This document shows positions 6,963-17,384 of a stretch of 64,000 bases of DNA, piece after piece. Location of the stretch: assembly GCA_000967895.1 (NCBI GenBank), contig FO203512.1, positions 1,003,582 through 1,067,581 of the forward strand, read 5' to 3'. Origin of the DNA: Oleispira antarctica RB-8 (GTDB lineage Bacteria; Pseudomonadota; Gammaproteobacteria; Pseudomonadales; Oceanobacteraceae). The notes under the pieces are model-generated. The model did no database searches. It was not told the origin of the DNA and worked only from the letters and a program-made list of their open reading frames with translations. Numbering within the stretch: the first letter of the stretch is position 1; each line of letters opens with the position of its first letter. The position numbers were made by a program, and so were the translations under genes.

Positions 6963-8126
6963 TTATGTCGAAGGTTTATGTTCCATTTTGACTTCTTCTT
7001 GCATTGCCGTTTTGCTATTTTCCGATATTTTATAACGTTCGTTATATTGTGCAATACTGATGATGCTATGGGTGTGGTTATCCCAAAGAATGTATTGAAA
7101 AGCATTGGGGATTTCACTCAATTTAATACGTTTTACACTATCAAATAGGTGTTTATATTGTTCATGACATTTTACTAAATTGTAATTCGGTATGCGGGCT
7201 GAAAGGTGGTGAATATGATGATAGGCAATGTCGGCTGTGAACCAGTTTAAGAACTTAGGCAGTTGTAAAAAACTAGTGCCATCGAGAGTCGCCGTAAAAT
7301 AATCCCAGTTGTCGCTGCTGGCTGCGTAAGACTCTTCGAAATTATGCTGCACCGTAAATAATACGATGCCTATTGCGCCGGCCAAAGAAAGAGCAACAAT
7401 GTAGATGCTGAAAAATTCGATGACCCCAAAATAACTGGCGGCTAAGATCCAACCAGATAATAAAACGACATTGTTTGCTGTCATGTGGCGATATTCTTGC
7501 CAGGTATTCCAGTAGCCCGTTTCGAATTCGGCATTAATTTCGCTTATGGGTTTTGAGAAGTTACTCAGTTTTTGCTTAATGAAGAAAATTGAAAATTGAA
7601 TGCTGCCTTTCATCCAGGTGAATCTTGGATTGAAAATAAAGTACAAAAATCCTGCCATTGGAGCCAATCTAAGCTTGCGTTGATTGGCATATGATTTTTT
7701 ACCTTTCTCAGTGAGTTCAGCATATTGATCAACGGATAATACGGCGAGAGGACCACGATATTTTTCCCAATTACCGTTGGTTGAATGGTGGTAATCATGA
7801 TGTTTTGACCATACATACTGAGGCACGCCGCATAATACGCCAAAAATAAAGCCTGCAATTTTGTTTTCTCGCGGATTGATGTACAAGCAGTTATGACCAC
7901 AATCGTGCAGCATCACAAAAACTCGAATGATGAACAGTGTGAGTATTAGGGTGATCCCTGCTGCTAACCAATATGAGGTTTTTAGGCTTTCAATCGCAAG
8001 ATAAAATAAGACGAAATACGGAACAATGGTAGTGAGGCTTTGAATAAATGCTTTGGTATTGTTGCGTTTGGCATAGTCTTCAATCAGCAATTTTTTTTGC
8101 TTTTTTAGTAGGATTGTTGCATTCAT
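6963..8126 (-). CDS. Membrane fatty-acid desaturase family protein
   Basis: 387-residue integral membrane di-iron enzyme. The three histidine boxes are in the right order: HDCGH (74-78), HHDYHH (109-114) and HHIHH (303-307), with hydrophobic segments around 30-72 and 220-260. These boxes bind the di-iron centre that inserts a double bond into an acyl chain. The regiospecificity cannot be read from sequence. ATG 8126 is the only reasonable start. About 210 bases upstream hold no gene and probably the promoter. The neighbouring GMC oxidoreductase may act on the same lipid-derived substrates. A hydroxylase role is less likely given the box spacing. Confidence 0.88.
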   Translation of the reverse strand: MNATILLKKQKKLLIEDYAKRNNTKAFIQSLTTIVPYFVLFYLAIESLKTSYWLAAGITLILTLFIIRVFVMLHDCGHNCLYINPRENKIAGFIFGVLCGVPQYVWSKHHDYHHSTNGNWEKYRGPLAVLSVDQYAELTEKGKKSYANQRKLRLAPMAGFLYFIFNPRFTWMKGSIQFSIFFIKQKLSNFSKPISEINAEFETGYWNTWQEYRHMTANNVVLLSGWILAASYFGVIEFFSIYIVALSLAGAIGIVLFTVQHNFEESYAASSDNWDYFTATLDGTSFLQLPKFLNWFTADIAYHHIHHLSARIPNYNLVKCHEQYKHLFDSVKRIKLSEIPNAFQYILWDNHTHSIISIAQYNERYKISENSKTAMQEEVKMEHKPST

Positions 8127-8335
8127 TATTTTATTATTATTCTCGTGTGCTTTATTGGACTAATGTCCTTATTTAATACAAGTATGACAGAATTTATCAT
8201 GAGTGAAAAATAATTTTTAGCGATTATTACTGTATTAGAGAGCATTAATAGACCGTATATTATCCAAAATTACTTAAATGCATTAATCATGTAATAAAAA
8301 GTATTGTTACATTCAATAAATTTTATAAAAAAATA

Positions 8336-8908
8336 TTATATTTCAATTATTTTATCTCTTGATGCTGCTAGTTCTTTCAGTATTTTGTTCTGAGATTGAT
8401 AACTAATATCAGCACCTTCCATCGCGCTGATTAAGAGCTCTACGATACGATTGAAGTCTTTTTTACTGATATTCATACCGGTATGAATATCAGACATCGT
8501 ATCGCCTTCATATTTGCAGGGACCACCAACAGCATCACATAAGTGACTGATAAAACCTTTTTTAAAGTGCGTGACATTAGACTTTGCAAAATAAGGGAGC
8601 ATATATTTGTCCTGAGCAATTTTTTGGACAAAAATGTTTACTATACGTTCAATCCCCTCATGTCCTCCAATATCATGATATAGACTGTTATCTTGTATCA
8701 CGTTTTTGCTACTGCATCCGACAAATAACTGAGAGAGGATGATCATCAAGAAGCAGGTTATCACTTTGAGCTTAAATAATTTAGGTATGAGCAACTTAGA
8801 GATGAGGAGCTTAGATATGAAGAGCTTAGATATAAATAGCTTAGATATAAATAGCTTAGATATAAATAGCTTAGATATAAATAGCTTAGATGTAAGTGAA
8901 TGGAACAT
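8336..8908 (-). CDS. Lipoprotein group-1 truncated haemoglobin with repeat-expanded N-terminus
   Basis: 190 residues. Residues 9-45 are a run of pentapeptides, FISKL five times, then LISKL and LIPKL, encoded by a 15-bp minisatellite. A hydrophobic segment and lipobox LFVGC follow (Cys65), so the mature part should be a lipid-anchored protein. Residues 70-190 match group-1 truncated globins: YHDIGGHEGIERIV at the start, VGGPCKYEG, and proximal His142 in SDIHTGM. The start ATG overlaps the stop of the DUF3034 gene by one base (TAATG), implying translational coupling and supporting this far-upstream start. An internal GTG just before the hydrophobic segment could give a normal-length signal peptide. 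It is the last gene of a four-gene operon; haem binding of O2 or NO is inferred. Confidence 0.85.
   Translation of the reverse strand: MFHSLTSKLFISKLFISKLFISKLFISKLFISKLLISKLLIPKLFKLKVITCFLMIILSQLFVGCSSKNVIQDNSLYHDIGGHEGIERIVNIFVQKIAQDKYMLPYFAKSNVTHFKKGFISHLCDAVGGPCKYEGDTMSDIHTGMNISKKDFNRIVELLISAMEGADISYQSQNKILKELAASRDKIIEI
8787..8891. repeat. 15-bp tandem repeat (7 units, last 4 identical)
   Basis: Seven consecutive 15-base units; on the plus strand the four perfect copies read ATAAATAGCTTAGAT and three diverged copies (beginning ATGAGCAAC, ATGAGGAGC, ATGAAGAGC) precede them. Because 15 is a multiple of three, gain or loss of a unit changes the globin N-terminus by five residues without a frameshift. 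The gradient from diverged to identical copies suggests recent expansion at one end. Confidence 0.95.
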
Positions 8909-9738
8909 TAATACGACCCCGAAAGCGATAAATACCAGCCTGTTTGATTGGGAAGTGCTGCGATGGCACCCAAGTCAAGATACGCTAAGGTAAGATTTAT
9001 ATGCTTGTTTGGAAACCAGGCAATAAAGACGTCTTGCCAATCATCTTCTTTTAGCCCTAAATTATCAGGTTTTTGCCTGTATTCTGTACCAATGGCCAAG
9101 TGCTTATTAATCAATATGGCTGCTGATACTTCTGCATTTAATGCCGCTTTACCTTCAGGACCACCAAAGCCGAGTAAACCAAGTTCATTTGATTGTGTAT
9201 GTCGAACAGTGGCATTCCATAAAACGTTATAACCCGCGAGTAATCCTAAATGTAATTTACTGGCGGCTAAATAGACATCGTTACCATTGTCATCACGGGC
9301 ACCTAACGAAAAACCAACATCGGGGGTTGTTAACGTTTTATGTTGAATTCCCAGCGATAATTGTGGCCAATTGCTGTAAACCAAATCACCGTATAATCTT
9401 AACTTTATACCGATGATTTCTTGAGATAACGTTAGTGAAAGGGGTTCTACATCGAAGTTCTGTTTAGCAAAGGAGAGTTCTAAGCGATCATAGAAATTGA
9501 CTTGACCACCGCAGCTATTTAACTGAAAGTCTTTTATATTTGCTTGTGTGCAAAATGCAGAAAAGGCGAGTTCATCTTCTGTTGCATAGCCCGCTAGTTG
9601 CGCCCAAGGCACAAGCCCGCCACCACCGGCTCCTTCTACTTGGGATACGCCAGGGGTTGCTAATAGTTTGCCATTTGCAAAGCTCATGAGCGGTAATAGG
9701 AGTAATATAACTTTAATTAACGTGTTCATCACTTTCAT
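8908..9738 (-). CDS. DUF3034 family envelope protein
   Basis: About 276 residues from ATG 9738 (ATG 9729 is equally possible). The N-terminus MNTLIKVILLLLPLMSFANG is a Sec signal peptide; an ATG at 9816 would add 26 polar residues in front of it and is rejected. The family signature GAGGGGLVPWAQLAGY follows cleavage, and the rest alternates as beta strands ending in LSGSY, typical of DUF3034 proteins. No function is established for the family; an outer-membrane barrel is the likely fold. The start overlaps the end of the GGDEF/EAL gene and its stop overlaps the globin start, so expression is coupled on both sides. Confidence 0.85.
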   Translation of the reverse strand: MKVMNTLIKVILLLLPLMSFANGKLLATPGVSQVEGAGGGGLVPWAQLAGYATEDELAFSAFCTQANIKDFQLNSCGGQVNFYDRLELSFAKQNFDVEPLSLTLSQEIIGIKLRLYGDLVYSNWPQLSLGIQHKTLTTPDVGFSLGARDDNGNDVYLAASKLHLGLLAGYNVLWNATVRHTQSNELGLLGFGGPEGKAALNAEVSAAILINKHLAIGTEYRQKPDNLGLKEDDWQDVFIAWFPNKHINLTLAYLDLGAIAALPNQTGWYLSLSGSY

Positions 9739-12055
9739 ACCATTCAATAAATTTTTCTGCGCTAATCGGTCTGGACAAGTAATAACCTTGAGCATAATCA
9801 CATTGAAATTGTTCAAGTAGTTCTAAACTTGCTTTATTTTCTACACCTTCGGCCACCACGCGAAGCCCTAATTTATGGCCAAGAGATATGGTGGATGCCA
9901 CAATATCTTGATCTTGCTGGCATTGATCCAGTTTTAATATAAACGTTTTATCAATTTTAAGTTCATCAACGGGTAAGTTCTTCAACTTGGCGAGTGATGA
10001 TTGGCCAATGCCATAGTCATCAACAGAGACCTCAAACCCCAGTGACTTTAAGTAGAATAAGCGTTCGGCAACAAGTTGCTCGTTGTCTGCTAAATCTCGT
10101 TCTGTTAGTTCAAGCGTTATCTGTACGGGTTCTACATTGAAATTGCTTAAGGTTGTTAATAAATACTCGATGAATTGTTCATGCTGAATATCTTGAGCGG
10201 ATAAGTTGATTGATACTTTAAATTTATGACCTAGCTGGTTCCAATGATCAACTTGTTTGATCACTTCTAATATTACCCAGCGAGTGAGTGTAGTGATTAA
10301 TCCAGACTTTTCTGCCAAGTTAATAAACAGCTCTGGGTTTACAAAATCGCCTTTGTTATTAATCCAACGAATTAAGGCTTCAAGTTTATCCACTTTGCCC
10401 GTTTTTATATTGAGCTTAGGCTGATAATTCATAAAGAGAGGACTGTTAGGGTTTTCTAGGGCCGCTTTTAACTCTTCAATTAAATGCAATTTGTAGAGAT
10501 AGATTTCATCATCACCCTGCTGATAAAGTCTAACTGATACTTGGTCTTTATAAGCATTTGAAACAGCCATGCTAGAGCGTCGTATTAATCGTTCTGCATC
10601 CGTCCCATGCTCAATAGAGTTTGCAATGCCGTAGTAGATCGAGAGCCTTATCTTAATGTCTGCTATCCAGAATGTTTTCTCAATTTCAATTTGTAATTGT
10701 TTAACAATGTCGTTAAGTATGTCGATGCTATTAATGGGAATGCAGATTAAAAATTCATCGATATTTATTCGAGCAGCAATGCTTTTGTGGTCATTGAGTG
10801 TGTTCAACTTTTCAATGTAAGCATTAATGCGAGAAGCTATCTCTATTAAAATCGCATCTGCATTTTTGGAGCCTATCGTATCGTTTAGCGCCTTAAATTT
10901 TTTAATATTGAAGGTAATTAATGCGAGATGAGTATTGTTTTTAAGATAAACGTCAATATTACTTAATATTTTATAGCGATTGAATAAACCTGTGAGCATA
11001 TCTCGTTCTGCTTGATACGTTATCTCCTTTTCTCTATTTTCGATTGCCGACCCCATCAAAACAAACCCTTCGTACAAGTCTGTAAATTCTGGGGGTAAAT
11101 TACTGCTTAATTTGGGAACTTCTAACTCTCCTTTGCCAATGTTTTTTGTCACGTTCATTAGAATGTTAAGAGGAGTTGATAAACCTTGAGACAATATTTT
11201 TGAAAGAGAAAACGCAATAATAATCACAACCAATGCAATTATTAATATAGACATAATAAGCTGATTAAAGTCACTTTTAATTTGTATTAAAGAGGCTGAT
11301 AAAATGGCATGAATATCATTCGAGCTGCTGAAGGCAATATTTTTATGATAATAATCCGATCGAGTTAATAACAAGTTCGGAGATTGTTGATTAATGCCGA
11401 ATTGAGTTGCAGTTAACAGCGCTTGCTGCTTTATGTCTTTGTCTTCAATACTTGATTCAATTATATGCTCTTTCTTTACCAGAGAGACTTCTAATGAAAT
11501 TAAGTTTTTTAGTTGTAATAACGCTGAATGGTCGAACTCAAAACCAATGACGGTATAGGCGATAACTCTAGGTGCTTTAACCGGAACGACAATAACTTGA
11601 TACACTTTATTGTCAATGCTAAGAATTTGTGCGTGAATGTTTTTGAAGGGAAGTTTTTTAATGTTATTTTCAATTACATCAGCGGAAAAAGAATATAACG
11701 AACTGCTCGTCAGCAAGTTTCCTTCTAAATCTAATATTAACATTAAATCAGCGTTAATCCGTTTACCGTGATTGAGTAATACGCTCTTAATTGTTTGCTT
11801 ATCTTCGGTTGCAACGGCTTGCTTAAAACCAAAGTCTGCAGCTAATACACTGGCCGTCGTGATCAATACTTGCTCTTGTAATCTGAGTGTTTGATTCAAT
11901 ACATTTTGTGCAACGTCTATTTTTTGTTCTATTTGAGCTTCTGCATAGTCGGCAAATCGGAACCAATTACTAATCGTTAAAAAGATAACGGTTAATAATA
12001 TTAAGCTTGTTGATAACCAAGTTATTTGTGTTTTGAAACTGAACTTAGTGTTCAT
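9713..12055 (-). CDS. Membrane GGDEF/EAL protein, probable c-di-GMP phosphodiesterase
   Basis: 780 residues: membrane segment about 12-32, periplasmic sensor of about 230 residues, second membrane segment near 268-288, HAMP, a GGDEF-like domain and a C-terminal EAL domain. The cyclase site is degraded (NIDEF in place of GGDEF), so that domain is probably regulatory. The EAL domain keeps its metal and catalytic residues: EALIRW, the Asn of INLSAQ, ELTERD, the DD of VDDYG, LKIDK, VAEGVE and AQGY, so it should hydrolyse c-di-GMP. It overlaps the cupredoxin gene by 11 bases upstream and the DUF3034 gene downstream, tying its sensing to periplasmic redox or gas-binding partners. Confidence 0.92.
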   Translation of the reverse strand: MNTKFSFKTQITWLSTSLILLTVIFLTISNWFRFADYAEAQIEQKIDVAQNVLNQTLRLQEQVLITTASVLAADFGFKQAVATEDKQTIKSVLLNHGKRINADLMLILDLEGNLLTSSSLYSFSADVIENNIKKLPFKNIHAQILSIDNKVYQVIVVPVKAPRVIAYTVIGFEFDHSALLQLKNLISLEVSLVKKEHIIESSIEDKDIKQQALLTATQFGINQQSPNLLLTRSDYYHKNIAFSSSNDIHAILSASLIQIKSDFNQLIMSILIIALVVIIIAFSLSKILSQGLSTPLNILMNVTKNIGKGELEVPKLSSNLPPEFTDLYEGFVLMGSAIENREKEITYQAERDMLTGLFNRYKILSNIDVYLKNNTHLALITFNIKKFKALNDTIGSKNADAILIEIASRINAYIEKLNTLNDHKSIAARINIDEFLICIPINSIDILNDIVKQLQIEIEKTFWIADIKIRLSIYYGIANSIEHGTDAERLIRRSSMAVSNAYKDQVSVRLYQQGDDEIYLYKLHLIEELKAALENPNSPLFMNYQPKLNIKTGKVDKLEALIRWINNKGDFVNPELFINLAEKSGLITTLTRWVILEVIKQVDHWNQLGHKFKVSINLSAQDIQHEQFIEYLLTTLSNFNVEPVQITLELTERDLADNEQLVAERLFYLKSLGFEVSVDDYGIGQSSLAKLKNLPVDELKIDKTFILKLDQCQQDQDIVASTISLGHKLGLRVVAEGVENKASLELLEQFQCDYAQGYYLSRPISAEKFIEWYESDEHVN

Positions 12056-16729: not shown

Positions 16730-17344
16730 ATGAATTTAAATGACGCTTTGGCTTTAATCGCCAGTTTTAGCAAAAAGAGCAGCGAGGTATTGACTGCGGA
16801 TGAGAATATGCTGGTTGATGGTAAGTCATTATCAACTTCCCTTTCCGAAGGTAGTCGTAAGGGATTACCGGTAGAGCTGATCCAATATATTGATGGGGTT
16901 TCTCCTGTCGAGGGATTGTCGTTAGAAGGCGTTGGGCATCCAGTAGAGCTTATTAAATCGGCTGATCTTGCTTGGCAGCCAAAGATGTTTGCTGAACTGT
17001 CGGCTGAGCTTCCTAAGTGGCAGGACGATTGGTTCTTAATTGCTCATGAAGGCGGCGATCCAATTATAGTGAAAACGTCTGAGCAGGGCGAAAATAGTCC
17101 AGTGTACAGTGCGATGCAAGGCATGGGCGATTGGGAGTTTGCACTGATAGCAGATTCTATTGGCCAGTTCTTAGTGTGTATCTGTGCGATACAGCATGCG
17201 TTGAATTTTCCAGGGCTAGGACAGCCTTTGGATGAAGATTTTAATTTAGCCCCAGCAGCGGCGAACTGGCTATTTCCATTTTTACGCCAACATGCGAATG
17301 CTCATTACGATGAGTGGGCATCGGTGTTCGAGAACTATTTATAA
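16730..17344 (+). CDS. SMI1/KNR4 (SUKH)-like protein
   Basis: 204 residues, no signal peptide or membrane segment. Residues 95-150 contain a SUKH-type core: WFLIAHEGGDPIIVKT, then VYSAMQGMGDWEFALIADS and FLVCICAIQHAL. SUKH proteins are frequent immunity proteins against contact-dependent toxins but also occur as solitary housekeeping or structural proteins. No toxin gene lies nearby, so an immunity role is not supported by context. Confidence 0.6.
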   Translation: MNLNDALALIASFSKKSSEVLTADENMLVDGKSLSTSLSEGSRKGLPVELIQYIDGVSPVEGLSLEGVGHPVELIKSADLAWQPKMFAELSAELPKWQDDWFLIAHEGGDPIIVKTSEQGENSPVYSAMQGMGDWEFALIADSIGQFLVCICAIQHALNFPGLGQPLDEDFNLAPAAANWLFPFLRQHANAHYDEWASVFENYL

Positions 17345-17384
17345 GAGCTCTAGATATCAAGTTATAAGAGCTCTTGATATCAAG
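17339..17384. repeat. 23-bp tandem duplication at the end of the SUKH-like gene
   Basis: Two adjacent 23-base units (17339-17361 and 17362-17384) differ at one base; the first unit begins in the last codons of the gene. The second unit with the following bases forms a near-perfect dyad centred on GATATC (about 17367-17390), giving a hairpin between this gene and the convergent SEC-C gene. Confidence 0.85.

Follow-up and report, generated by a model that had tools for sequence, protein, structure and literature searches.

The opa genes of Neisseria carry CTCTT pentamers in the region coding for the signal peptide, and the number of pentamers changes by slipped-strand events, as described in PMC3960869 and PMC3899988. 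More generally, coding minisatellites are reported to be prevalent in genes for extracellular or cell-surface proteins (PMC3899988). Exceptionally long signal sequences, with an extended signal peptide region, have been described for autotransporters (PMC2805444). PARCEL elements are sporadic tandem coding repeats that are associated with membrane-targeted proteins (PMC2996958). Here, we describe a 15-base tandem repeat in the leader of a globin gene of Oleispira antarctica RB-8, the evidence that it is translated, and possible explanations for its presence. In the main text of a paper on Oleispira antarctica (PMC7318663), neither globin nor hemoglobin occurs. The window is the whole stretch of DNA that was analysed, 64,000 nucleotides in length (contig FO203512.1, positions 1,003,582 to 1,067,581); positions are those of the window unless stated otherwise.

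The globin array shares features with several of these systems. Like the opa leader repeats, it would be a tandem repeat translated inside a signal peptide. The opa pentamers shift the reading frame and switch the gene on or off, whereas the globin unit has 15 bases, keeps the frame, and is known from one sequence; the frame shift that marks a phase-variable contingency locus of the opa kind is thus excluded by the unit length. As in coding minisatellites, the unit exceeds ten bases and lies within the coding region of a putative exported protein. Arrays in the yeast FLO genes, the published examples, vary the protein itself, whereas the globin array lies in a part that is expected to be cleaved off. 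The globin signal sequence is exceptionally long, like those of the autotransporters. Extended signal peptide regions of autotransporters are conserved and non-repetitive, whereas the extension of the globin is a tandem repeat and is absent from the 16 homologues that were read. PARCEL is a 25-residue amphipathic motif with dyad symmetry, unlike the 5-residue globin repeat, which has a helical moment of 0.08. In the open-licence literature searched, we found no precedent for an in-frame minisatellite confined to the n-region of a lipoprotein.

The globin gene and its neighbors

The features of the locus are as follows.

8336-8908, minus strand: gene for a 190-aa group 1 truncated globin whose leader resembles that of a lipoprotein (ORF with ATG at 8908; PF01152; PDB relatives)
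8714-8776, minus strand: remainder of the signal peptide, with FKLK, the hydrophobic stretch VITCFLMIILSQLFVG, and Cys65 of the lipobox (sequence; alignment)
8777-8896, minus strand: repeat array of eight in-frame 15-base units (TRF, exact-copy search, codon register)
8908-9816, minus strand: DUF3034 gene (PF11231), listed from its first possible start (profile match; stop overlaps the globin ATG)
8917-8920, minus strand: Shine-Dalgarno-like GGGG where DUF3034 has its final glycine codon (junctions; duplex energy)
9713-12055, minus strand: gene for a GGDEF/EAL protein with a dCache_3 sensor, first in the order EAL-DUF3034-globin (profile match)

The globin protein consists of MFHS, eight pentapeptides, FKLKVITCFLMIILSQLFVGC, and then the globin domain. 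The domain matches PF01152 as a whole (E 1e-14; profile positions 1-118 of 121). This was the sole Pfam match at E <=0.001 for the full 190-aa protein; the pentapeptide repeat family PF00805 gave none. At E <=0.01, 22 distinct PDB sequences match the globin, the best of them being HbN/GlbN group 1 truncated hemoglobins (E 1.4e-12). In the proximal-His stretch, MSDIHTGMNI of the globin is aligned to MKQVHQGRGI of HbN, and we take its His to be the proximal His F8. By the whole domain and the conserved His within the motif M-x-x-[IV]-H-x-G, both of which it shares with HbN/GlbN, the product of 8336-8908 is a group 1 truncated hemoglobin. It differs from HbN/GlbN in its N-terminal signal peptide and in a Val that is aligned with a Tyr of HbN, presumably position B10; L001 and L004 have Ile there. 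Given the residue opposite TyrB10, the ligand pocket may differ from that of HbN. Searches of PHROGs (globin) and PADLOC (globin and DUF3034) gave no match.

The repeat array

The array lies on the minus strand and, by the codon register of the globin, comprises eight in-frame units that encode, in order, LTSKL, five copies of FISKL, LISKL, and LIPKL. The sequence-only reading had proposed seven FISKL units at 8787-8908; TRF and translation bear out the repeat and its place, with the array on the minus strand, but the count is eight and the array reaches 8777. TRF reports a main row of period 15 (5.9 copies, score 155, 8808-8895) and a second row at 8787-8820, which is a diverged, 2.3-copy continuation of the array. 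The unit CTATTTATATCTAAG occurs as four exact copies at genome positions 1012406-1012465 (8825-8884 of the window), in line with the proposal of four identical units among diverged ones. The first, or edge, unit departs from the consensus at 2 of 15 bases. The last two (3') units carry five changes each, and the 5' units are identical or near-identical.

The array is real, and far above chance. Among 60 Markov-1 sequences of 64 kb each, generated with the dinucleotide frequencies of the window, the best TRF score was 69, compared with 155 for the array. We also ran TRF on a 464-kb sample of the genome, consisting of the window and twenty 20-kb stretches, with a minimum score of 50. This gave 28 rows, six of them of period 15; the globin-leader array is the strongest of these six and the only one with more than three copies, while five rows of other periods (18, 157, 234, 236, and 471 bases) outscore it. 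The array could belong to a dispersed repeat of its own genome, but this was rejected, since the four exact copies of CTATTTATATCTAAG are the only ones in the 4.4 Mb genome (a single contig of 4,406,383 bases). With up to two mismatches to the unit, there are 25 sites in the genome, five of them inside the array, against 17 for the reversed control. Rfam has no family at 7500-10500, and megablast in near mode gave no match to plasmids. An amphipathic repeat was likewise considered and rejected; the helical moment is 0.08 and the strand moment 0.13, i.e., the period of five comes without amphipathicity.

Translation start and coupling to DUF3034

The stop codon of DUF3034 (TAA) and the globin ATG at 8908 share one base (TAATG). 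Overlapping start and stop codons are also found in the three nearest homologues, as TAATG in L030, TGATG in L001, and ATGA in L004. In all three, a run of GGG or GGGG marks the final glycine codon of DUF3034, some 8 to 12 bases ahead of the start. For pairing with the 3′ end of 16S rRNA, we calculated an energy of −6.2 kcal/mol at ATG 8908, and −6.4, −4.0, and −3.8 kcal/mol in the three nearest homologues. Because the overlap and the GGG/GGGG run recur in these homologues, and because the internal codons TTG39 and GTG49 have no Shine-Dalgarno-like site, a globin start at ATG 8908 is well supported by sequence comparison. The TAATG overlap had been taken to fix the start, and this holds at 8908, with the overlap kept in L030, L001, and L004.

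Other starts fare worse. An internal GTG had been put forward as the alternative; at both GTG49 and TTG39 the duplex energy is +0.4 kcal/mol, versus −6.2 kcal/mol at ATG 8908, and both were rejected as lacking Shine-Dalgarno-like pairing. TTG54 and ATG55 pair at −4.9 kcal/mol, but they lie inside the hydrophobic core, leaving a signal that is too short and a Cys that is too near.

The overlap is limited to the three nearest of the 12 homologues for which the junction was read. In the other nine, a gap of about 8 to 80 bases separates the DUF3034 stop from the globin start that follows it. The junction script was given 16 loci; L033, L034, and L037 were missed by its search motif, and their gene order was read by eye. 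The order EAL-DUF3034-globin was seen by eye in 14 of 15 homologous loci, and in the remaining one (L039) the contig piece begins inside DUF3034. Gene names at loci outside the profile scan were likewise assigned by eye.

The differences between units also bear on translation. Relative to the consensus there are nine distinct changes, of which three are nonsynonymous in the globin frame, where a mean of 6.26 is expected (P 0.006). Leaving out the edge unit, two of eight changes are nonsynonymous, with a mean of 5.6 expected (P 0.003). These figures describe 8-9 events in one allele, reconstructed by our own simple parsimony. The globin frame has the fewest nonsynonymous changes of the six frames, the other five having 6-8. 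Since the changes are mostly silent in the globin frame, translation of the repeat is favored, as is constraint on the peptide. The repeat had been called probably translated, and both the coupling kept in the three nearest homologues and this silent bias agree.

Homologues and the origin of the repeat

A search of the family matched 23 genomes, including that of Oleispira antarctica itself. Leaders were read for the 14 with strong hits (L004, L030-L042), and three matches were to the repeat only (G019, G020, and G031). The remaining five genomes have weak globin matches only (L043-L047), and four second matches are weak as well (L051-L054); all nine, at 22-46 bits with 26-32% identity, fall outside the homologue counts. 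The repeat is absent from all 16 homologues with leaders read (L001, L002, L004, L030-L042), so the array is a lineage-specific expansion. Within the genus, the gene was matched in two of six genomes, including its own; the four genomes without a match include two with a completeness of 71% and 81%. The second same-genus homologue of the globin gene lacks the repeat.

In a MAFFT alignment, the leaders of three homologues lack the 46-49 columns that hold the repeat, and Cys65 is aligned. The alignment places only the first Met of L030 under that of the globin, with L001 and L004 set as shorter N-termini; it is thus the position relative to DUF3034 that supports a shared start. With the start shared by that position and the Cys aligned, the repeat would sit between two kept landmarks. 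The sequence-only reading held that homologues lacking both repeat and coupling would point to a neutral upstream expansion; this does not apply to the three nearest, which lack the repeat and keep the coupling, and the nine more distant ones lack both the repeat and the overlap. It had also proposed a recent expansion, and the pattern of identical 5′ units and diverged 3′ units supports this. Arrays that grow from one end usually look like this, near-identical at one side and diverged at the other.

The signal peptide

The leader LKVITCFLMIILSQLFVGC has a basic region, a hydrophobic core, and a lipobox Cys that, by eye, fit the lipoprotein pattern, with Phe at −3 (FVGC). The usual residue at −3 of a lipobox is L, V, or I, and Phe departs from it. 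C65 is invariant among four sequences aligned with MAFFT, one of which is a fragment. A lipobox-like Cys ends the leader, by eye, in 5 of 16 homologues (L001, L004, L030, L034, and L039), and the others have ordinary-looking signal peptides. Judged by the motif alone, the globin is probably a lipoprotein. The earlier description of a globin with a lipoprotein-like leader is consistent with the PF01152 match and with the basic region, hydrophobic segment, and Cys65 in the sequence.

All 10 lysines fall within the first 48 residues of the leader, and no acidic residue is found in its 65 residues. Ahead of the hydrophobic core, the 17-residue Kyte-Doolittle mean reaches 1.68, i.e., the leader is rather hydrophobic between its lysines. 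Full tolerance of such an n-region is therefore an assumption.

Similar 15-base arrays in other genera

The repeat-only protein matches in G019, G020, and G031 led to arrays that have a unit in common, AGCYTRGANAYNNNN, in either orientation. A pattern of three AGCYTRGANAYNNNN units matched 4 of 42 family genomes and 4 of the 390 searched in the order, both counts including the genome of Oleispira antarctica, against 0/42 and 0/390 for the reversed pattern. A two-unit pattern returned the same four family genomes and no others. The three other matches in the order, G064, G258, and G306, were not used in building the pattern. In the genera of two of these three, 1 of 18 and 1 of 50 genomes had it. 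Across a phylum sample of 299 genomes, the core AGCYTRGA at 15-base spacing was found only in the Oleispira window. A widespread core at free spacing is not supported, with matches in 6 of 299 genomes, including our own, versus 6 with control matches.

The settings of these arrays vary. G019 and G020 (L055/L056), which belong to one genus of the same family, share a locus with a 5.3-copy, 15-base array beyond a gene end; most units differ between the two at one base (GTTG versus GTCG), and the array is non-coding by eye. G031, from another genus of the family, has a 256-aa lipoprotein-like frame without a Pfam match (L058:1396-2166), with a SLETK/SLEIK array of 15-base units shortly after a lipobox-like Cys and a second array (SIDTK) near the C-terminus. 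This frame parallels the globin leader, with its arrays in what would be the mature protein. In G064 (L066:1489-1577), a histidine kinase frame that matches PAS, HisKA, HATPase_c, and response-regulator models begins with MDDQ, followed by SLDTL-type 15-base repeats, at a possible gene start. G258 (L067:1498-1553) has an in-frame SLETS/SLETG array inside a gene that resembles, by eye, an error-prone DnaE polymerase, and the array of G306 lies between two frames that resemble tsaB and uppP by eye. The recurring AGCYTRGANAYNNNN arrays are a lead; the numbers are small and a class is not established.

Explanations for the array

We consider it probable that the array is a slippage-born, translated, and tolerated extension of the n-region that is removed with the signal peptide. 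From the sequence, we infer the following course. A 15-base stretch at the 5′ end of the coupled globin gene would have expanded by replication slippage, or else by unequal recombination, with the most recent growth at the 5′ end of the array. Translation of the repeat in the cell would begin at the old start, which is conserved. Ahead of the hydrophobic core, the signal peptide has roughly 2-7 residues in the nearest homologues; here it would have grown to about 48 residues, 10 of them lysines and none acidic. As a positive n-region of excessive length, this extension would remain in the cytoplasm while the protein is exported. Cleavage before Cys65 would remove it together with the signal peptide and leave the mature globin as it was. 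The array may persist as a near-neutral extension because its unit keeps the frame, as had been pointed out from its length and as the eight 15-base units in the globin frame bear out, and because n-regions tolerate basic sequence of variable length. Weak purifying selection could keep the extension basic and free of stop codons.

In the sequence-only reading, a change in copy number would tune the length and charge of the n-region. A selected rheostat of this kind, in which copy number would adjust export or translation of the globin through n-region length and positive charge, could draw on a unit that keeps the frame, on 5′ copies that are nearly pure and hence presumably prone to slippage, on the lysine-rich leader devoid of acidic residues, and on the amino-acid bias of the changes between units. 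We regard it as quite unlikely; the repeat is found in 0/16 of the homologues read, and the locus is known from a single sequence. Nor is a rheostat acting through slow codons suggested, since ATA makes up 16.5% of Ile codons and CTA 11.4% of Leu codons in the genome, i.e., they are uncommon rather than very rare. It is very unlikely that translation instead begins inside, at TTG39 or GTG49, leaving the repeat as an untranslated upstream expansion. A start at TTG39 would give a signal peptide of normal size, MLIPKLFKLKVITCFLMIILSQLFVGC, but the lack of Shine-Dalgarno-like pairing at both codons, the coupled start of the three nearest homologues, and the mostly silent changes in the globin frame argue against it.

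A further explanation places the cause in the DNA, with the array belonging to a class of 15-base arrays of preferred unit AGCYTRGANAYNNNN at unrelated sites and the globin leader being an incidental host. The arrays in G019/G020, G031, G064, G258, and G306, and the empty reversed controls in both family and order, speak for it. However, the window, G019/G020, and G031 had served to derive the pattern, leaving as independent matches only 3 of the 389 other genomes of the order; the matches are singletons in the two genera followed up, the two-unit pattern added no genome among the 42, and the relaxed core at free spacing occurs in 5 other genomes of the phylum sample versus 6 control genomes. 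We consider this explanation unlikely. In its broader form, the globin leader would exemplify a hitherto undescribed class of minisatellites with a preferred 15-base unit that recurs at unrelated sites in the order, on either strand, encodes SLExx or FISKL, and sometimes lands in gene starts, where lipoproteins and a histidine kinase gain variable segments at their N-termini; we give this form a similarly small chance.

What the array would mean differs between these explanations. If its copy number varies, it would be a frame-safe counterpart of the Opa leader repeats, as well as a natural length series of the n-region with which to ask how long or how charged this region can become before export suffers. 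If it is neutral, it would show clearly how a coding expansion close to the start is tolerated by selection because the segment is cut off.

Other repeats in the genome

Several other repeats were seen. A 23-base unit with short palindromes (GAGCTC and GATATC) occurs twice at 17339-17384 of the window. Genome positions 510825-513069 (L086:10825-13069) gave TRF rows of 37, 157, and 236 bases, and the 157-base unit seems, by eye, to include the beginning of a REP-associated transposase. At genome positions 2911058-2920000 (L098:11058-20000) there are long tandem arrays with periods of 471 and 234 bases, the second extending at least to the end of the sampled stretch; these arrays perhaps encode a very large repeat protein.
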